DNA of 64,000 bases from Haloplanus salinus (GTDB lineage: Archaea; Halobacteriota; Halobacteria; Halobacteriales; Haloferacaceae): NCBI RefSeq assembly GCF_003336245.1, contig NZ_QPHM01000001.1, positions 1,988,113 to 2,052,112 of the forward strand, given 5' to 3'. The notes beneath the pieces were generated by a model. The model was not told where the DNA came from and searched no databases. It saw only the letters and a program-made list of their open reading frames with translations. Position numbers and translations under genes: made by a program. Every line of letters begins with the position of its first letter. Within the stretch, counting starts at the first letter, position 1. This document shows, in pieces, positions 14,361 through 23,606 of the stretch.

Positions 14361-14776
14361 TCGCGGCGGTACCGGATCGCCGCGCCGCCGTCGAAGAAGT
14401 CGGGGAGCCGCTCCCGCTTCTCGAAGCCACAGTCCCGGTAGAGCGCCCGTGCCGCCTCGTTGTCGGGGGCGACGGTGACGGTCAGCGCGTCGTCGGTTCG
14501 CTCCGCACACGCCGCGAGCAGCGCCCGCGCCCGCCCCTCGCGGCGACGGGCGGGTGCGACGACCAGTTCCGCGACGTAGGTCGTCCCGTCGCCGGCAACG
14601 GCGAGGAGGAAGGCGACGGGCGTCCCACCTTCGCCGTCGGCCGTCGAAACCAGCGCAGCCGGCGTCGGCGCCGCGTCGTCGAGGGCGGCGTCGAGCAGGT
14701 CCGGGCTCGGCTCCGGGAGCCGTGACTGGAGGCGGGTCAACGGCCCCCGATCCGCGGGGGTCGCCGGGCGGATCAC
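14357..14776 (-). CDS. GNAT-family N-acetyltransferase
   Basis: 139 residues, one GNAT domain. The acetyl-CoA pyrophosphate loop reads [19 protein letters not shown] (R/Q-x-x-G-x-A/G type), followed by [24 protein letters not shown] typical of motif B. The substrate is unknown. Its start overlaps the DUF92 stop by 4 bases (ATGA), so it is translated from the same transcript as the DUF92 gene, which may or may not mean a shared pathway. Confidence 0.88.
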
Positions 14777-16086
14777 AGCAGGACCACGGCGAGCGCCGCG
14801 CTCACGACGGCGCCGGCGAGCGTGCCGAGGAAGTTGACGGTCTGGTTGCCGACGCGGCCGCCTTCGAGCGTCGCGCCGAGGACGCTATCGACGGTCATGC
14901 CCGCGATGCCCCCACAGACGACGGTGAGGGCAGCGATCCCCGGCGCGTCGAACGTGAAAGTGGCGACGGCGACGACGGCGACGAGTCCGGCGCCGACGAC
15001 GCCGACGACGTAACCCTGCCACGTGATGCCGCCGTCGGTCCCGGGATCGACGCGTTCGAGCGTCGTGATGAGCCGCGGCCGGTCGAAGAGGACGCCGATC
15101 TCGCTGGAGAGCGTATCGCTCATCGCCGCGGCGAGCGACCCGGTGAAGGCGAACCGAAAGAGCGTGCTGTCGACCCCCAGCCCCGTGCTGGCGGCGAAGC
15201 CGATGACGGCCACGAGCGCGACGGCGGCGTTCCCGAGGACGTTCCCGCTCCCGCGGGCTCCCTCGTTGTCCTCGGCGACGCCGCGGTCGCTCTTCTCGCC
15301 GTACCGATACTTCGCGGAGAGGCCGCCGACACCGAAGAAGGCGATGAGGATCGCGAACCAGCCGACGCCGCCGAAGACGATGGTCAGGAGCCCGAGGAGG
15401 ACGCCGGTCACCATCCCCGGTACCGACGCGGTCCCGGTTCGGTACGAGACGTAGCCGAGGGCGACGGTCACGAGGAGGGCGGTCCCCACCGCCGCGAGTC
15501 CCGACTCGACGCCGATGGTGTCGAACAGCCAAAGCAGGAGGCCGGTCGAGAGCATCACGATGGGGTCGTCGCGTTCGTAGAGCATCGACCGCAGGAGCGC
15601 TGCCACGAGCGCACCGGCGGCGGCGAGGAAGATGGCCGACGCCGCCTCGGGGGGGCGTCCGAGGTTCCACCCGACGACGAACTGGCCGGCGAGAGCGGCG
15701 AGGAACGCGGCGAGGCTGAAACCGGCGACCGATCGGCCGGGGTCGCTCCACAGCCGTTCGACGGCCCGCGCACCGACGTTACCGTAGGCGACGACGAGGA
15801 CGGTCGCGGCGAAGACGGGCGTCGGCATCGACTCCCGGGGTGCGGTAGCGAGGACGGCGAGTCCCGTCGCCGCTAGGGCGAAGCCGGCGAGGCCGTTGAG
15901 TCGACCGTCGCGCCGATCCTGGGGCCGGGCGAAGAGTTCGAACACCGGCCCCTCGTCGACGACGAACGCGGCGAGGAGCGCGACCACGGCGAAGGGGGCG
16001 GCGGCTGCCCGCCCGAGTTCGGGAGCGGCGAGCGCCAGCGTCCCGACCGCCGCGAACCCTCCGGCCCGACGAAGGGTGGACGTCAC
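14773..16086 (-). CDS. DUF92 (VTE6-like) polytopic membrane protein, possible isoprenyl-phosphate kinase
   Basis: 437 residues, about 12 hydrophobic segments. The C-terminal half (from about 200) has the DUF92/TIGR00297 signature blocks SDTLSSEIGVL, TDGGITWQGYVVG and GMTVDSVLGATLEGG. The N-terminal half is a separate run of about five to six helices. The plant DUF92 protein VTE6 is a CTP-dependent phytyl-phosphate kinase; by analogy this protein may phosphorylate an isoprenyl phosphate. It is divergent (107 bases apart) from a cis-prenyltransferase-like gene and near a second one, which fits a polyprenyl-lipid role. That role is inferred. Confidence 0.8.
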   Translation of the reverse strand: MTSTLRRAGGFAAVGTLALAAPELGRAAAAPFAVVALLAAFVVDEGPVFELFARPQDRRDGRLNGLAGFALAATGLAVLATAPRESMPTPVFAATVLVVAYGNVGARAVERLWSDPGRSVAGFSLAAFLAALAGQFVVGWNLGRPPEAASAIFLAAAGALVAALLRSMLYERDDPIVMLSTGLLLWLFDTIGVESGLAAVGTALLVTVALGYVSYRTGTASVPGMVTGVLLGLLTIVFGGVGWFAILIAFFGVGGLSAKYRYGEKSDRGVAEDNEGARGSGNVLGNAAVALVAVIGFAASTGLGVDSTLFRFAFTGSLAAAMSDTLSSEIGVLFDRPRLITTLERVDPGTDGGITWQGYVVGVVGAGLVAVVAVATFTFDAPGIAALTVVCGGIAGMTVDSVLGATLEGGRVGNQTVNFLGTLAGAVVSAALAVVLL

Positions 16087-16193: not shown

Positions 16194-16802
16194 GTGGGCC
16201 TGTACGACCGCTATCTCGCGCTCAGACAGCGTTTCAACCCCGGTGACCCGCCGGCACACGTCGCGCTCGTCCTCACCGAGCGGGACCTGCTCGAACAGGG
16301 GGCGTACGACCGCCTCGAACGCGTCCTCGCGTGGGCCTTCGACTACGGCGCCGAGCGCGCCACCGTCTCGGTGAGCGTCCTCGACGAGGCGGTGGTGCCG
16401 ACGCTGGCACGCGAACTGCGGGACGTCGACGCCCCTCGCCCCGTCGCCGTCCGCGTCCCCGACGACACCGACCCCGTCACGGCACCCGTGCAGGTGAACG
16501 TCGGACTCGGCGGAAAAGGCGAGTTCGCCGCCGCCGTCCGCTCGCTCGCCGAGGAGGTGGACGCCGGCGAACTCGACCCGGCCGACCTCGATGAGACCGA
16601 CGTGGAGCGTCGCCTCGTCTTCCCCGACGAGCCCGACCTCCTCATCAAGACCGGCGCCGAACGCCTCTCGGATTTCATGATCTGGCAGTCCGTCTACTCC
16701 GAACTCTACTTCACCGACGTGAACTGGCGGGACGTGCGCAAGCGGGACTACCTGCGGGCGGTGCTGGATTACCAGAACCGGCAGCGGAGATTTGGCCGGT
16801 AG
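16194..16802 (+). CDS. Cis-prenyltransferase homologue lacking the DGN catalytic motif (NgBR/Nus1-like subunit)
   Basis: 202 residues from a GTG. Aligned by eye with UppS, PAHVALVLTERDLLEQG replaces the catalytic P.HVA.I.DGN.R segment, VQVNVGLGGKGEFAAAVRSL matches the L N.A..YGG...I..A...L block, and the C terminus DLLIKTGAERLSDFMIWQSV then YSELYFTDVNW matches the diphosphate-binding region of UppS, with Lys for the first Arg. The last residues, QRRFGR, carry the RxG motif that NgBR-type subunits supply to their catalytic partner. It is shorter than UppS (about 250). It probably pairs with the catalytic enzyme at 18882-19811 to make C55-C60 dolichol-type carrier lipid. Confidence 0.75.
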   Translation: MGLYDRYLALRQRFNPGDPPAHVALVLTERDLLEQGAYDRLERVLAWAFDYGAERATVSVSVLDEAVVPTLARELRDVDAPRPVAVRVPDDTDPVTAPVQVNVGLGGKGEFAAAVRSLAEEVDAGELDPADLDETDVERRLVFPDEPDLLIKTGAERLSDFMIWQSVYSELYFTDVNWRDVRKRDYLRAVLDYQNRQRRFGR

Positions 16803-16913
16803 GTCGACCCACGCCGCGACCGCTCACCTGCTCGCCGGGAACTCCCGCCCCCATTTGAACGGCTTATACTCATATCCGGCAAGTAGTTGTCCCCGGCGGC
16901 GCTCGGATCACGT

Positions 16914-17884
16914 ATGGGACGGGGGTACGACGGCGCCGGGTCAGCGGCGGGGACGGGCACCGGCACCGGCACCGGCACCGGCGTCGCCCTCGTCGTCGTC
17001 GGGGCGGCGCTTTCGGGACGCTCGGCATCTTCGGCAAACTCGCCCGCGCCGCCGAGCTATCGACGGCGACGCTCCTCGGCGCCCGCTTTCTCGCCGCCAG
17101 TGCGATCCTCTGGGCGTATCTCGTACGCCGCGGCGTGCCGATCCGACTCGACCGCCGGACGCTCGCCGCCGAACTCGGTCTCGGGCTGGTGTACGGCTTC
17201 ATGTCGGTCGCGTACTTCGAGAGTCTGGCGTGGCTCTCGGCGGGGGTCGCGACGCTCGTCCTCTTCACCTATCCGGTACAGGTGACGCTCGTCTCCGCGC
17301 TCGTCCTCGACGAACCGGTGACGGGATCGAAGGCACTCGCGCTGTGTACCGCCCTCGGCGGCGTCGCCCTCGTCGCGGGCGACGGGACGGCCTTCGGCCT
17401 CTCGGGGCTCGTCCTCGTCGCCGCCGCGTCGCTCGCGTACACCGTCTACTCGGTCGGTTCGCGCGTCATGGTCGAGACGGTGCCGGCACCGGTGCACGCG
17501 GCCTCCGTCTTCCTCGGCGTGACCGTCGCCGTCCTGCTGTACGGGGTCGTGGCCGGAACGCTCGCGGTGCCGACGACGCCGACCCACTGGCGGCTGATCG
17601 CCGGCATCAGCGTCGTCGGGACGCTCCTGCCGATGCTCCTGTTCACCGCCGGCCTGGCGCGCATCCCCGCGAGCACCGCCAGCATCGTCAGCACGAGCGA
17701 ACCGTTGACCACCGTCGCCCTCGGGGTGGTGCTTCTCGGCGAACCGGTTACGCCGGCCGTCGCCGTCGGCGGCGCGGCCATCCTCGCGAGCGTCGTCCTC
17801 GCGTCGCCGGCGGTCGAACGCGCCGTGGCCGACCGACTCGGCCGCGTCGACCCGCGACGGACGGAGCTGCCGCCGGATGACTGA
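16914..17884 (+). pseudogene. EamA-family (DMT) transporter, interrupted by a one-base frameshift
   Basis: From ATG 16914 the frame gives a Gly/Thr-rich tail and GVALVVVGAAL, then runs off into unrelated sequence. If one T is added to the TTT at 17011-17013, it continues FGTLGIFGKLARAAELSTAT, then LLGARFLAASAILWAYLVRRG and joins the open frame ending at 17884, restoring the first helices of a ten-TM drug/metabolite transporter (two EamA repeats, about 320 residues). Without repair only an N-truncated product from an internal GTG (17135) could form, lacking TM1-2. It may be a true inactivation, a phase switch in a short T run, or a sequencing error. Confidence 0.8.
16956..16979 (+). repeat. 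(GGCACC)x4 hexanucleotide repeat
   Basis: Four perfect tandem copies of GGCACC encode a Gly-Thr repeat at the N terminus of the frameshifted EamA gene. A change in copy number would not alter the frame; the frameshift itself lies about 30 bases downstream. A related Gly-Thr/Gly-Ala run ends the metal permease at 52769-53827. Confidence 0.85.
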
Positions 17885-18569
17885 GAGCGGAGGTGGGGGC
17901 GAGGGCGAGGGTGGGGGCGGAAGCGGGTTGACGGCCGTCCTCGCCGTCGAGCACCCCGACCTCGCGCTGACCGAGACGGCGGCGCGCGACCGGAGCGCGA
18001 CCATCCACCCCGTCCGCGAGGCGGGCACCGACGCCGAATCCGGCCACCACCACGTCGTCGTCCGGTCGGATTCGTTCGAGCGTTTCGACGCGGCGCTTTC
18101 CGCCGATCCGACCGTCGCCGACTTCGACCCCGTCACCGCCTTCGACGGGGGGCGACTCTATCGCGTCGCCTACACGGATCGGGCGATCCTGTTCTCGCCG
18201 GAGATCACGCGGGCGAACGGCCTCGCACTCGACATCGAGAACGACGGGACGGGCTGGACGATGACCGTCTGGGTCCCCGACCGCAACCGGCTGGCCCGCC
18301 TCTTTGCCTTCGCCGACGCCCACGGCGTCGACATCCGACTGCGACGCGTCAACGACTACGCCGGCCCGGTCGAGGGGGCGGTCGACCTCACCGCCGCCCA
18401 GCGCGAAGCGCTCCTGACCGCCTTAGAGGCGGGCTACTTCGAGGAGCCACGCGAGGCGACGCTCGCCGACGTCGCGACCGAACTCGACATCACACAGCCG
18501 GCGGCCGGCGGGCTGCTTCGGCGGGGAATCAAGCGACTCCTGATAGCGACGGTGGCCCGCGACGACTAG
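17877..18569 (+). CDS. Bat-like HTH_10 transcriptional regulator
   Basis: 230 residues. After a Gly-rich N-terminal tail comes a sensor-like domain (about 20-160) of the type found in haloarchaeal bacterioopsin-activator-related proteins. The C-terminal HTH_10 domain is clear: LTAAQREALLTALEAGYFEE, then ATLADVATELDITQPAAGGLLRRGIKRLL in two blocks. Such proteins regulate neighbouring or stress genes; no target is known. Its start overlaps the end of the EamA gene by 8 bases, so the pair was probably one transcript. The stop shares a CTAG with the opposing MscS remnant. Confidence 0.85.
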   Translation: MTESGGGGEGEGGGGSGLTAVLAVEHPDLALTETAARDRSATIHPVREAGTDAESGHHHVVVRSDSFERFDAALSADPTVADFDPVTAFDGGRLYRVAYTDRAILFSPEITRANGLALDIENDGTGWTMTVWVPDRNRLARLFAFADAHGVDIRLRRVNDYAGPVEGAVDLTAAQREALLTALEAGYFEEPREATLADVATELDITQPAAGGLLRRGIKRLLIATVARDD

Positions 18570-18835
18570 TCGGTCTCGCCGGGGCCGACGCCGTCGTCGA
18601 CGCCGATCCGACCCTGTAGCTCCCGGTTCGACGCCGGACTGATCGTGACCCCGGCCGCCTCCAGTCGTGCCTTGATCCTCCGGGCGTACGCCGACCGGAC
18701 GGCGAAGATGTCCCGCCGTCGCGGGTCCGCGATCCAGTAGTGAATCCGGAGCACCACCGCATCGGAGCCGAAGTCGTCGACGTACGCCTTCGGCGTCGGC
18801 GCCGATGTCGCGGCCTGCAGCACGATGTGGAGCAT
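18566..18835 (-). pseudogene. Remnant of an MscS-type mechanosensitive channel (C-terminal domain only)
   Basis: The 89-residue frame resembles only the cytoplasmic C-terminal domain of MscS: PTPKAYVDDFGSDAVVLRIH, then YWIADPRRRDIFAVRSAYAR and RIKARLEAAGVTISPASNRE. No transmembrane helices or pore segment precede it; the uppS stop lies only 47 bases upstream of its ATG, and no MscS-like peptide is seen in other frames there. Typical channels are 270-400 residues. It is most likely a deletion remnant, though a free-standing domain protein cannot be excluded. Confidence 0.7.
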
Positions 18836-18881
18836 ACGGGCGCCACGACCGGACGGTACAAAGCTCCTCGGCGGTGTCGGG

Positions 18882-19811
18882 CTACTCCGTCGTCCCGGCG
18901 TCCCCGCGGTCGAGTTCGGCCGTCAGTTCGTCGGTACCGCCGTTGGGAAGCTGATTGCGCAGGCGGCCGATCACCTCCCGCGTCTCGACGAGCGAGGACC
19001 CCGCGACGGCCCGGACCAGAGCCGCCGCCCGCTCCCGACGGGTGTGGCGCCACGACGCCTCGCGGGACTCGTAGGTACGGATCGCCCGCAGGAAGTCGAT
19101 CTTCGAGAACTCCGGCCAGTACGGCGCACAGAAGAAGACGGCGGCTTCGTTGCCGTTGGCGTGCCACGGGAGGAAGTTGCTCGTCCGCTCGTCCCCGCCC
19201 GTCCGGACGATGAGGTCCACGTCGCGGACGGGGCGGGCGTAGAGGCGACGCTCGATTTCGGCGGCGTCGACGTCCGCCGGATCGAGGTCGCCGGCCGCGA
19301 CCGACCGCAGCGTCTCGCGGGCGGCGCCCAGTAGCTCCGCCCGGCCGCCGTACGCCAGCGCGACGTTCAGGCGGAAGCGGTCGTAGTCCCCCGTCCGCTC
19401 CTCGGCGTACGCGACGGCGTCGCGGACACGCTCGGGAAGCCGGTGCACCTCGCCGAGCGCGCGGATGCACACCCCGTTCTCGTGGACTTCCTCCCTGTCC
19501 GCGAACGACCGCAGCTTCGATTCGATGAGGTCGAACAGGTGGGCGCGCTCAGCCGGCGGGCGTTCGAAGTTCTCGGTCGAGAAGGCATAGAGCGTGAGTT
19601 CCTCGACCCCGAGGTCCTGACACCAGCGGAGCACCCGCTCGGTGGTTCGGGCGCCCTCGCGGTGGCCGTCGGCGGCGCCGTCGCCGCGCTCGCGGGCGTA
19701 TCGACGGTTCCCGTCCTGAATGACGGCGACGTGGTCGGGAGCGCCGTCGATGTCACGCTGGAGGAGGCGCTCGTAGGCGCGCTCGACCAACCGGGGGACC
19801 CGCGTGTGCAT
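18882..19811 (-). CDS. uppS: Polyprenyl diphosphate synthase, catalytic cis-prenyltransferase subunit
   Basis: 309 residues. Condenses isopentenyl diphosphate in cis to make long polyprenyl diphosphates, the precursors of dolichol-type glycan carriers. The catalytic P-loop HVAVIQDGNRRYARERG carries Asp33; LTLYAFSTENFERP and LNVALAYGGRAELL follow, then LIVRTGGDERTSNFLPWHAN with the diphosphate-binding arginines and serine. It departs from bacterial UppS after this: FFCAPYWPEFSKIDFLRAI leads to a long tail and no C-terminal RxG motif is present, as in DHDDS-type subunits that need a partner. The 16194-16802 protein has that motif. Confidence 0.92.
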   Translation of the reverse strand: MHTRVPRLVERAYERLLQRDIDGAPDHVAVIQDGNRRYARERGDGAADGHREGARTTERVLRWCQDLGVEELTLYAFSTENFERPPAERAHLFDLIESKLRSFADREEVHENGVCIRALGEVHRLPERVRDAVAYAEERTGDYDRFRLNVALAYGGRAELLGAARETLRSVAAGDLDPADVDAAEIERRLYARPVRDVDLIVRTGGDERTSNFLPWHANGNEAAVFFCAPYWPEFSKIDFLRAIRTYESREASWRHTRRERAAALVRAVAGSSLVETREVIGRLRNQLPNGGTDELTAELDRGDAGTTE

Positions 19812-19903: not shown

Positions 19904-21280
19904 ATGAGTGACGCCGACGCGGCGGTCGGGGACCTCGATTTCGAATACGTCCCCGAAACCGACCAGCCGTTCGAGAATGCGCTCGCGAAGGCGCGTGACG
20001 GCCACCGCCTCACCGTCGACGACGCGGTCGAACTCCTGACGACCGGCACGGAGCGGGCGGGGATCGACCCCGTCCGGAAGGAACGGGTACTGGAGGCAGC
20101 CGACCACCGCCGTGCGGACGTCGTCGGCGACGACGTGACGTTCGTCGTCAACCTCAACAACAACGTCACGACCGCCTGCGACACGGGCTGTCTGTTCTGT
20201 AACTTCAAGGACCGCGCGTCGGCGTTCGAAGTCGACGCCCCCGACGACCACGGCGGGTTCACCAAGACGCCGGCCGAGTCGCGCCGAGCGGTCGCCGACG
20301 CCGTCGAACTGGGCATCTCCGAGGTGTGTTCGGTGAGCGGTCTCCACCCCGCGTTCGCCCTCGACGCCGACCACCGCGAACTGCTCGAATCGGCCGCCGA
20401 CCCCGGCCGCCTGAACTACCGTCCGCCCGACGCCTACGCCACCTCGCCGGGAACCTACGCCGAACAGATCCGCGCCATGTCCGTCGACGGCGTCCACGTC
20501 CACTCCGTGACGCCCGAGGAGGCCTACCACGCCCGCCGCGGCACCGACCGGTCTTACGAGGCGGTGTACCGACGCCTGCGGAAGGCGGGCCTCGACAGCG
20601 CGCCTGGCACCGCAGCGGAGATTCTGGTCGACGAGGTGCGCGACGTGATCTGTCCGGGGAAGATGGACACGGCGGAGTGGCTCGACGCCATGGAGGGGGC
20701 GATGGCCGCCGGCCTTCCCGTCACCGCGACGATCATGTACGGCCACGTCGAAAACGAGATGCACCGCGCCATGCACCTGAAGCGGGTGCGTGACCTGCAG
20801 GACCGGACCGGCGGGATCACGGAGTTCGTCCCCCTCTCTTTCGTCCACCAGCGGACGCCGCTCGCCGACCGTGGCCTCGTCTCCGGCGGCGCCACCGACG
20901 CCGAGGACGAACTCATGATCGCCGTCTCCCGGCTCTTCCTCGACAACATCGAGAATCTCCAGACTTCCTGGGTGAAGTTCGGCGACGAGAAGTCGCTGAA
21001 GACCCTCTCCTGTGGTGCCAACGATTTCATGGGGACGCTCCTCTCCGAGGAGATAACCAAACGCGCCGGCGGCGACTACGGCGAGTTCCGTTCGGTCGCC
21101 GACTACGTCGACATGGTGTCCGCTATCGGTCGCCGGCCGGTCGAGCGGTCGACGGACTACGAGCGTCGGCGACCGATCGATCCCGACGACGACCCGCACG
21201 GCCCACGGCTCGGTCCTCGTGCCGACGGGACGCCGATGCTCGATCGGTCGTGTCCCTCCTCCCCCGCCGCGGACGACTGA
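19904..21280 (+). CDS. cofH: 7,8-didemethyl-8-hydroxy-5-deazariboflavin (FO) synthase subunit 2
   Basis: Radical SAM enzyme joining tyrosine to 5-amino-6-ribitylaminouracil in coenzyme F420 synthesis. 458 residues; the [4Fe-4S] cluster motif is C92-xxx-C96-xx-C99 in ACDTGCLFCNF, preceded by LNNNVTT. A barrel with VCSVSGLHP, PGKMDTAEWLDAM and MYGHVE blocks follows, with the conserved FVPLSFVHQ. The family is about 360-460 residues; the C-terminal 60 residues are a haloarchaeal extension. Divergent from uppS (92 bases apart). cofG and cofC lie just beyond, on the other strand. Confidence 0.96.
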   Translation: MSDADAAVGDLDFEYVPETDQPFENALAKARDGHRLTVDDAVELLTTGTERAGIDPVRKERVLEAADHRRADVVGDDVTFVVNLNNNVTTACDTGCLFCNFKDRASAFEVDAPDDHGGFTKTPAESRRAVADAVELGISEVCSVSGLHPAFALDADHRELLESAADPGRLNYRPPDAYATSPGTYAEQIRAMSVDGVHVHSVTPEEAYHARRGTDRSYEAVYRRLRKAGLDSAPGTAAEILVDEVRDVICPGKMDTAEWLDAMEGAMAAGLPVTATIMYGHVENEMHRAMHLKRVRDLQDRTGGITEFVPLSFVHQRTPLADRGLVSGGATDAEDELMIAVSRLFLDNIENLQTSWVKFGDEKSLKTLSCGANDFMGTLLSEEITKRAGGDYGEFRSVADYVDMVSAIGRRPVERSTDYERRRPIDPDDDPHGPRLGPRADGTPMLDRSCPSSPAADD

Positions 21281-21282
21281 TC

Positions 21283-21837
21283 ATGATGGCGACCACCCAC
21301 GCGGCGGTCGGGCTCTTGCTCGCGGTGCCGCTAGCCGTCCTCGCCCCCGACTTGGCCGTCGCCGGTGCGCTCGCCGCCATCGCCGGCGGCGTCTTTCCGG
21401 ACCTCGACCTGTTCGCCGGCGTCCACCGCCGGACGCTTCACTTCCCTGACTACTACTGGCTAGGTGCGATCCCGGCCCTCGTCGCCGCCGCGCTCGCTCC
21501 CTCGGCTCCGACGGTCGCCGTCGCGTACTTCCTCCTTTCGGCCGCCATCCACTCCGTCAGCGACGCCTTCGGCGCCGGCACGGAACCCCGTCCGTGGGAG
21601 CGCACCTCCGTCGAGGCGGTCTACCTCCACTCCCGGAGTCGGTGGCTCCGCCCCCGCTACTGGGTGCGCTACGACGGCGCCCCCGAGGACTACCTGCTCA
21701 CCGTCCTTTTCATGTCGCCGGGGCTGGTCCTGTTCGATCCGCCCGTCGGCCGCGTCGCTCTCACCTTCATCGCCGTCGGCGGCGCCTACACGCTCGTCCG
21801 CAAGCGCCTGCCGGATCTCGAAGAACGGTTACTGTAA
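21283..21837 (+). CDS. Membrane-bound metal-dependent hydrolase (YdjM/DUF457 family)
   Basis: 184 residues starting MMATTHAAVGLLLAVPLAVL, with about five hydrophobic helices. The family metal-ligand pattern is visible: His in TTHAAVG, the acidic GGVFPDLDLF, and HSVSDAFGAGTEPRPWE later. Members resemble phospholipase C-type or LexA-induced inner-membrane hydrolases; no substrate is known here. The start follows the cofH stop by 2 bases, so it is read from the cofH transcript; an in-frame GTG start at 21250 is also possible. Its 3' end overlaps the convergent cofG by 9 bases. Confidence 0.8.
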   Translation: MMATTHAAVGLLLAVPLAVLAPDLAVAGALAAIAGGVFPDLDLFAGVHRRTLHFPDYYWLGAIPALVAAALAPSAPTVAVAYFLLSAAIHSVSDAFGAGTEPRPWERTSVEAVYLHSRSRWLRPRYWVRYDGAPEDYLLTVLFMSPGLVLFDPPVGRVALTFIAVGGAYTLVRKRLPDLEERLL

Positions 21838-22956
21838 CGCGCGATACCGCCGCCCCGCCTCGTCGTCGGCTCCGAGCGCCGCTCGGACCATCGGCCGGAG
21901 CCACGTCCCCGGGGCCCCCTCGACGCCCGCCCGCCGGAACGCGTCGGGGAGATACCGCTCGTGGGTCGGGAGCCGTTCCCGGAGGGGAACGCCCGCCTCG
22001 GACGCGATCGACTCCAGTTCGTCCAGCGCCGGCCACGCGTAGTCGGGGTTGATGTAGTCGTCCGTCACCGGCGAGACGCCCCCCAAGTCGTCGATGCCGC
22101 AGTCGAGCAACTCGCGGGTCGGCGAGAGGTTCGGCGGTACCTGTACCGACACCTCCGGCGGGAGGGCGGCCCGCGCCATCGCCGTCGTCTCGCGCATCGT
22201 CTCGACGCTCGGGCGCTCGAAGTCCGAGCGCTCGTTCGGGACGACGTTCTGGACGATCACCTCCTGAACGTGGTCGTAGCGGTCGTGGAGTTCGCGGATG
22301 GCCAACAGGCTCTCCGCGCGGTCACGGCGGGTCTCGCCGATACCCACCAGAATCCCGGTGGTGAAGGGGACGCCCGCCGCTCCCGCCGCCCGGATCGTTC
22401 CCAGTCGGCGCTCGGGCGTCTTCGTCCGGCTGCCCGAATGTGCGCTCACGTCCGCCGTCGTCTCCAGCATCACGCCCATGCTGGCGTTGACCTCGGCCAG
22501 CCGTTCCAGTTCCTCCCGCCGCAGGTCGCCGGGGTTGCTGTGTGGGAGCAACCCGACGTCGAGTGCCATCTCACAGGCGTCGTAGAGGTAGTCGAGCACG
22601 TCGTCGTACCCCCAGTCGGCGAGTTGGTCGTGGACGGCCGTGTAGCGCTCGTCCGGCGCGTCGCCGAAGGTGAACAGCACCTCGGTACAGCCGGCGTCGG
22701 CGCCGACCCGTAACTGCTCCCGGACCGTCTCGGGTGACATGAGCGTCGCCTCGCCCGGGACGTCGTAGAACGTACAGTAAGTGCAGGTGTACCGGCAGGC
22801 GGTCGTCAGCGGCAGGAAGACGTTCCGCGCGAACGTGAGTTCGGCGGCCGAACCCACGTCCGCGGGCGTCACGTCGAGGAGGGCGTCGGCCGCGTCGTCG
22901 TCGATCAGCGTCCCGGGGGCGACCCGTTCGTCGTCCGATTCCGGCGCCCGTGGCAT
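21829..22956 (-). CDS. cofG: 7,8-didemethyl-8-hydroxy-5-deazariboflavin (FO) synthase subunit 1
   Basis: Second radical SAM half of FO synthase, converting the CofH product to the deazaflavin FO. 375 residues from ATG 22954-22956; cluster cysteines C54, C58 and C61 in ACRYTCTYCTFYDV. Further CofG-like blocks are EVLFTFGDAPDERY, GVMLETTADVSAHSGSRTKT and IVQNVVPNERSDF. An in-frame extension to 23055 is arginine-rich and overlaps cofC, so it was not used. cofC lies 32 bases upstream on the same strand, forming a cofC-cofG operon. Confidence 0.95.
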   Translation of the reverse strand: MPRAPESDDERVAPGTLIDDDAADALLDVTPADVGSAAELTFARNVFLPLTTACRYTCTYCTFYDVPGEATLMSPETVREQLRVGADAGCTEVLFTFGDAPDERYTAVHDQLADWGYDDVLDYLYDACEMALDVGLLPHSNPGDLRREELERLAEVNASMGVMLETTADVSAHSGSRTKTPERRLGTIRAAGAAGVPFTTGILVGIGETRRDRAESLLAIRELHDRYDHVQEVIVQNVVPNERSDFERPSVETMRETTAMARAALPPEVSVQVPPNLSPTRELLDCGIDDLGGVSPVTDDYINPDYAWPALDELESIASEAGVPLRERLPTHERYLPDAFRRAGVEGAPGTWLRPMVRAALGADDEAGRRYRALQ

Positions 22957-22988
22957 GGCCCCGGCTCCGCACCGGAGGGGGAAAAACC

Positions 22989-23606
22989 TCACCCCACGCG
23001 GTCGATGCCGACCCGTCCCTCGCCGGTGTCGAGTTCGAACCGCTTCCCGAGCCACGCCGCCGCTTCGCCCTCGCCGTGGAGCAGAACCTCCGCCAGATCG
23101 GTCGGCTCGTCCACGTCGGTCGATAGCCGCATCGAGTCGACGACCGCCACGTCCGCACCGACCGCGCGCGCGGCGGCGACGTGGTCGCGGTAAGAGACCC
23201 CGTGGAAGTCGACGCGGAAGTCCCGGTGGTCGATCACCAGCCCGTTCGTCCCCCCGGCTCGCCCGGGTGCGACGGCGACGTCGGCGTCCGCCGCGGCGTC
23301 GACGAGGCGGTCGACGGCGCCAGCCGTCGCGAGCGCGAGGTCCGCGACGACGACGCCGAGCGGCGTCGTCCCGCCGAGGCGGGCGTTCACGGCTGCGGAG
23401 AGCGGTCGGTCGTCGACGGTCACCGGCGCGTCGGCCACCTCGACCGGCGCCGTCGCCACGACTTCCGGGTCGTGGCCGGCGTCGAGACAGGCGTCGATGA
23501 CGTCACGGAGCATCGCTCGCGCCACGTCGTCGCGTTCGTCGGCATCGAGTACCTCGCCGAGACGCGTCTTCGGATCGACCGCTTCGAACGGGACGAGAAT
23601 GCGCAT
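22989..23606 (-). CDS. cofC: 2-phospho-L-lactate guanylyltransferase
   Basis: Activates 2-phospholactate (or phosphoenolpyruvate) with GTP during F420 synthesis. 205 residues beginning MRILVPFEAVDPKTRLGEVL, the CofC version of the nucleotidyltransferase N-terminal motif, with APGRAGGTNGLVI and DVDEPTDLAEVLLHG, all typical. Length matches the family. It is upstream of cofG on the same strand. With cofH opposite, three F420 genes cluster here; cofD and cofE are absent. Confidence 0.93.
   Translation of the reverse strand: MRILVPFEAVDPKTRLGEVLDADERDDVARAMLRDVIDACLDAGHDPEVVATAPVEVADAPVTVDDRPLSAAVNARLGGTTPLGVVVADLALATAGAVDRLVDAAADADVAVAPGRAGGTNGLVIDHRDFRVDFHGVSYRDHVAAARAVGADVAVVDSMRLSTDVDEPTDLAEVLLHGEGEAAAWLGKRFELDTGEGRVGIDRVG

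Follow-up and report, generated by a model that had tools for sequence, protein, structure and literature searches.

Two genes of the haloarchaeon Haloplanus salinus, located in a stretch of 64,000 nucleotides (the window), very likely encode the two subunits of a single heteromeric cis-prenyltransferase, whose polyprenyl diphosphate product would be the precursor of dolichyl phosphate, the glycan carrier, a reading to which we assign a probability of roughly 0.88. The larger of the two proteins would carry the active site, in which Asp33 is predicted to bind Mg2+ and arginines to hold the allylic diphosphate. The smaller one resembles a degenerate copy without a working active site, whose C-terminal RRFGR tail may cross the dimer interface into the active site of the large subunit and thus complete the acceptor (IPP) diphosphate/Mg2+ site. 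Either subunit by itself would be expected to be inactive or weak. By analogy with the human and Methanosarcina mazei enzymes, the two proteins would form a complex with an active site completed in trans and a product of about C50-C60. A division of labour of the kind found in DHDDS/NgBR and in methanogens had been proposed in a first-pass annotation of the window; the residue partition, the co-occurrence of both genes and the orthology to the M. mazei enzyme make it very likely right.

The two proteins and their predicted folds

The putative catalytic subunit (18882..19811, minus strand, 309 aa) consists of a full cis-prenyltransferase domain, which matches PF01255 with 228.7 bits over profile positions 1-216, i.e. 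all but the final three model positions, and a C-terminal helical extension (residues about 252-305). It contains the motif HVAVIQDGNRR with Asp33, which is invariant among 81 homologues, and it lacks the C-terminal RxG motif. The position of this reading frame, its catalytic aspartate and the missing RxG had all been noted in the first-pass annotation and were recovered in the translation. Among the sequences from about 100 genomes, every large protein with a complete N-terminus carries DGN. Human DHDDS is the top match in the PDB both by sequence and by Foldseek, and it is the closest solved structure in a profile search (5e-73). The AlphaFold2 model (mean pLDDT 87.8) aligns to DHDDS residues 9-300 with an rmsd of about 5. 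In a manner reminiscent of DHDDS, whose C-terminal helix-turn-helix makes the dimer of heterodimers, the modelled C-terminal helix runs beyond the point at which chains with RxG end and is followed by a second helix; these helices (237-270 and 274-287) are modelled with a pLDDT of 71-86, and homologues from Archaeoglobaceae are devoid of the extension. A stretch of low confidence (211-220) coincides with the expected position of the partner. Residues 217-226 of the window protein read HANGNEAAVF and contain a two-residue insertion at the dimer-interface segment, which only 13 of the sampled large subunits lack; almost all of these 13 are of the Archaeoglobaceae type without long C-terminal extension.

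The putative non-catalytic subunit (16194..16802, plus strand, 202 aa) displays a pseudo-cis-prenyltransferase fold that has lost the catalytic residue set while retaining a YSELYF segment and the RRFGR tail. PF01255 matches merely its C-terminal half (86.5 bits, profile 115-219). In place of DGN, the protein reads HVALVLTERDL, it also carries WQSVYSELYFTD, and it terminates in YQNRQRRFGR. Position, missing DGN, SELYF block and QRRFGR end with RxG therefore all agree with what had been described earlier. A comparison of the small with the large profile by hhalign revealed homology over the whole length (probability 100). The small profile also matches bacterial UppS (8e-34) and, over full length, NgBR (3e-11). 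Its AlphaFold2 model (mean pLDDT 87.8) was compared with known structures using VIA-align, which placed human NgBR among the top rows: residues 1-202 align to NgBR 80-291 (Z 15.2, rmsd 3.8, 177 residues), a score with which many catalytic homologues tie. Confidence is low for residues 151-170 and the tail, which is where the partner would sit. An N-terminal membrane anchor is absent from the 202 residues, as the protein starts at the domain, with the first helix (2-14) directly preceding the first strand. The label "NgBR-like" given to it at the outset hence fits the role of the protein and not membership of the NgBR/NUS1 family.

Partition of active-site residues between two families

The homologues collected from about 100 genomes separate cleanly into two families, of which the small one comprises 98 sequences without DGN. 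Using E. coli UppS as ruler, residues acting in the chain's own site (D26, G27, N28, R30, S71, N74 and R77) were scored in 120 large, 97 small and 58 single-gene archaeal proteins. All seven are kept in every large and every single-gene protein (120/120 and 58/58), while 82 of the 97 small proteins have none and the remainder never more than three; DGN occurs in 0/97. The RxG motif shows the reverse distribution, with presence in 96/97 small and 0/120 large proteins. The homodimeric archaeal and bacterial UppS enzymes share the same fold and motifs, which in the haloarchaeal pair are divided over two proteins: in the single-gene archaeal enzymes, own-site set, interface Glu and RxG all reside on one chain (58/58, 58/58 and 57/58, respectively). 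With 97 small and 120 large homologues displaying it as a fixed pattern, this partition is not a product of chance.

In solved homodimers, the RxG arginine reaches Mg2+ via a water molecule and the main chain of the glycine contacts the acceptor phosphate (PMC8131916). In the human cis-prenyltransferase, the NgBR tail crosses the interface into the active site of DHDDS, and the tail mutant R290H loses activity (PMC7573591).

The segment around E. coli E213 was considered as a second clean element provided in trans. It harbors Glu in 97/97 small proteins, as in the single-gene enzymes, and is remodelled in all large proteins, where Glu is absent from the 13 without insertion and a two-residue insertion is found in 107. 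An initial count of its absence in 120/120 large proteins was withdrawn, because 106 of the 107 proteins with the insertion have a Glu at position W+6, which renders the loss of the interface Glu dependent on the alignment.

Distribution and gene neighborhood

The genome of H. salinus contains exactly two PF01255 matches, which are the two genes described here. Co-occurrence of both genes across Halobacteria had been set beforehand as a test, and its outcome speaks for the proposed two-subunit enzyme. In a sample of 194 near-complete genomes of this class, the small gene was found in 194/194 and an intact-looking large gene in 193/194. The number of PF01255 matches per genome is two in 186, three in seven and one in a single case. 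In the latter haloarchaeon, the large gene is represented by a fragment that scores 72 bits and contains an in-frame TGA stop (G072:C24:42666-42995), due to either decay or an assembly error. The first-pass annotation had regarded the pair as a haloarchaeal locus, which holds for its presence in Halobacteria and not for any restriction to them: it occurs throughout Halobacteriota, with both genes in 68/70 genomes of the phylum. The other two (G200 and G208) belong to one genus, have a completeness of about 91% and yielded neither subunit with the Pfam model or by profile, which may reflect gene loss or assembly gaps.

In the window, the two genes converge tail to tail, an orientation that is conserved phylum-wide. 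The positions of both genes were available for 109 haloarchaeal genomes; the pair lies within 10 kb in 82 of them, and in the other 27 both genes are present without being adjacent. All close pairs are arranged tail to tail, in Halobacteria (82/82) as in other Halobacteriota classes (18/18); these counts come from related genomes and are thus not independent, and the arrangement spans the phylum. Between the subunit genes of the window (17135-18569), genes for an EamA transporter and a BAT/HTH_10 regulator overlap by a few bases. They are a local insertion, as other genera lack them.

Upstream of the small gene, separated by about 107 bp, a DUF92 (PF01940) integral membrane protein is encoded on the minus strand (14773-16086; Pfam 180 bits). 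Its divergent orientation, already pointed out in the first-pass annotation, was found here as well as in 36 of the 38 loci from haloarchaea and 14 of the 33 from other Halobacteriota; among these 38 and 33 loci, no DUF92 gene was encountered in any other orientation relative to the small gene. The linkage of DUF92 with uppS had been pointed out by Makarova et al., who named HVO_2318 (PMC5898192). The DUF92 protein is a candidate for a later step of this lipid pathway. Haloferax gibbonsii shares the gene order of the window, i.e. dnaG, GNAT, DUF92, the small gene and then the large gene. The large subunit gene of the window is adjoined by the F420 cofactor genes cofH, cofG and cofC (19904-23606); these were dismissed as functional partners, as just 3-4 of 38 haloarchaeal loci have them in the vicinity of the pair.

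Comparison with known enzymes and alternative explanations

The closest characterized system is that of M. mazei, a member of the same phylum, in which MM_0618 and MM_1083 form a heteromeric cis-prenyltransferase with C45-50 products, according to the account of Emi et al. 2019 in PMC8131916. One Methanosarcina genome was found to contain three paralogues. One of them is of the MM_0014 type and orthologous to MA1831/MM_0014 (439 bits to 7vq9, 400 bits to MM_0014 in 7caq), while the other two belong to the large and the small family; with the MM_0014 paralogue accounted for, these families are assigned to MM_0618/MM_1083 by elimination. In phylogenetic trees, the small and the large proteins each constitute one group that includes Methanosarcinaceae, with a support of 100/100 for the small group and of 82/57 (full set) or 99/93 (reduced set) for the large group. 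Both haloarchaeal subunits have their orthologues in the M. mazei heteromer, and the residue partition is identical. The systems differ in gene arrangement, with the two genes lying apart in the sampled Methanosarcina genome, in the additional MM_0014 paralogue of M. mazei, and in chain length, as the C45-50 products of the methanogen compare with a C55/C60 dolichyl phosphate that serves as glycan carrier in the halophile Haloferax (PMC3827465).

Both families are also present in the Archaeoglobaceae genomes sampled, and a heteromeric cis-prenyltransferase of Archaeoglobus fulgidus was reportedly described by Sompiyachoke et al. in 2022. In contrast to the haloarchaeal proteins, the large proteins of this family mostly stop shortly behind the domain (at about 250-253 aa) and have neither the long C-terminal extension nor the NGNE insertion. 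Human DHDDS/NgBR (NUS1) likewise combines a catalytic subunit without RxG and an inactive subunit with RxG. NgBR, however, possesses an N-terminal membrane anchor and is distant from the haloarchaeal small protein in sequence, and the eukaryotic products are longer (C85-100). In the literature searched, no description of the haloarchaeal pair as a heteromer was found. The pair represents a type of archaeal enzyme that has been described before, and it is ordinary for its phylum, in which it is nearly universal.

MM_0014 of M. mazei illustrates that the lack of RxG, real as it is in the large protein, is by itself no proof of the need for a partner, in correction of the first-pass annotation: this enzyme is devoid of RxG and is an active homodimer with C25-40 products (PMC8131916). 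Conceivably, the large subunit could therefore be a self-sufficient homodimer of this kind, with the small protein serving another role, e.g. as regulator or scaffold, and the Glu near the interface position of the large proteins with insertion would fit such an arrangement. We consider it unlikely, as the small proteins have lost precisely the own-site set and kept precisely the trans element, and as both genes co-occur in a near-perfect manner. In addition, the large family is distant from MM_0014 (52-101 bits compared with 163-249 bits for DHDDS), RxG is retained in all but one of the other archaeal single-gene enzymes, and the M. mazei orthologues function as a heteromer (PMC8131916).

Still less probable, and in our estimate very improbable, is a heteromer in which the small subunit merely stabilizes or tethers the large one and the RxG tail is dispensable. 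This idea draws on the yeast NgBR homologue Nus1, in which Asn replaces the RxG arginine (PMC7573591). The haloarchaeal type of small protein, on the contrary, retains RRxG in 96/97 cases while the remaining sequence drops to 31-43% identity outside Halobacteria, and the inactivity of the human R290H variant speaks against a dispensable tail as well. Hence, a heteromer in which the tail of the small subunit completes the active site of the large one is the preferred reading.

Origin of the split

Other archaeal phyla mostly encode one complete gene, as seen in 81/81 Thermoproteota with a match, 27/27 members of the phylum of the Methanococci, 59/61 Thermoplasmatota and 64/69 Asgard archaea. 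Among the other archaea sampled, no split pair was found outside Halobacteriota, with one possible exception. This concerns a Thermoproteota genome (G378) with a split-looking pair of its own, composed of a protein with DGN and no RxG (L367:1355-2170, minus strand) and one with DEN and RRFGR (L368:1348-2109, minus strand). Its degenerate member groups among Bathyarchaeota enzymes in the tree, and no second such split was detected in the sample of the same order; the pair apparently arose independently of that in Halobacteriota, in one genome. In addition, four Thermoplasmatota (G488, G491, G475 and G266) encode a complete cis-prenyltransferase along with a second copy (L370, L372, L374 and L316) that lacks RxG and the interface Glu.

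Since the tree unites the small proteins in one group and the large proteins in another, the data are consistent with a single split on the Halobacteriota stem. Tree tests rejected none of three placements, namely large and small proteins as one clade (p-AU 0.36), DHDDS with the large proteins (0.19) and DHDDS with Asgard (0.14). Support for convergence with eukaryotes thus comes from the distribution and not from the tree: because a complete single gene is retained by the Asgard archaea, to which eukaryotes are most closely related, the eukaryotic heteromer probably represents an event separate from the split in Halobacteriota. Overall, we lean towards a scenario in which a homodimer was split into catalytic and tail-donating subunits on the Halobacteriota stem, independently of eukaryotes, and in which the same asymmetric loss is restarting in other archaea.

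Biological significance

Taken together, the two haloarchaeal "UppS" genes can be explained as the halves of one enzyme that would supply the lipid carrier of N-glycosylation, and their annotation as two synthases is misleading for this reason. With MM_0618/MM_1083 described before, what the pair adds concerns evolution. Its two-gene layout appears to be confined to one archaeal phylum, and it therefore probably arose apart from that of eukaryotes. As most archaea outside Halobacteriota, Asgard included, make do with a single complete gene, the fixed pair of this phylum constitutes another instance of the DHDDS/NgBR design, and probably an independent one. The C55/C60 carriers of haloarchaea are no longer than bacterial products, which argues against chain length as the reason for a second subunit. 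The pair hence opens an experimental route to the question of why homodimers turn into obligate heterodimers.
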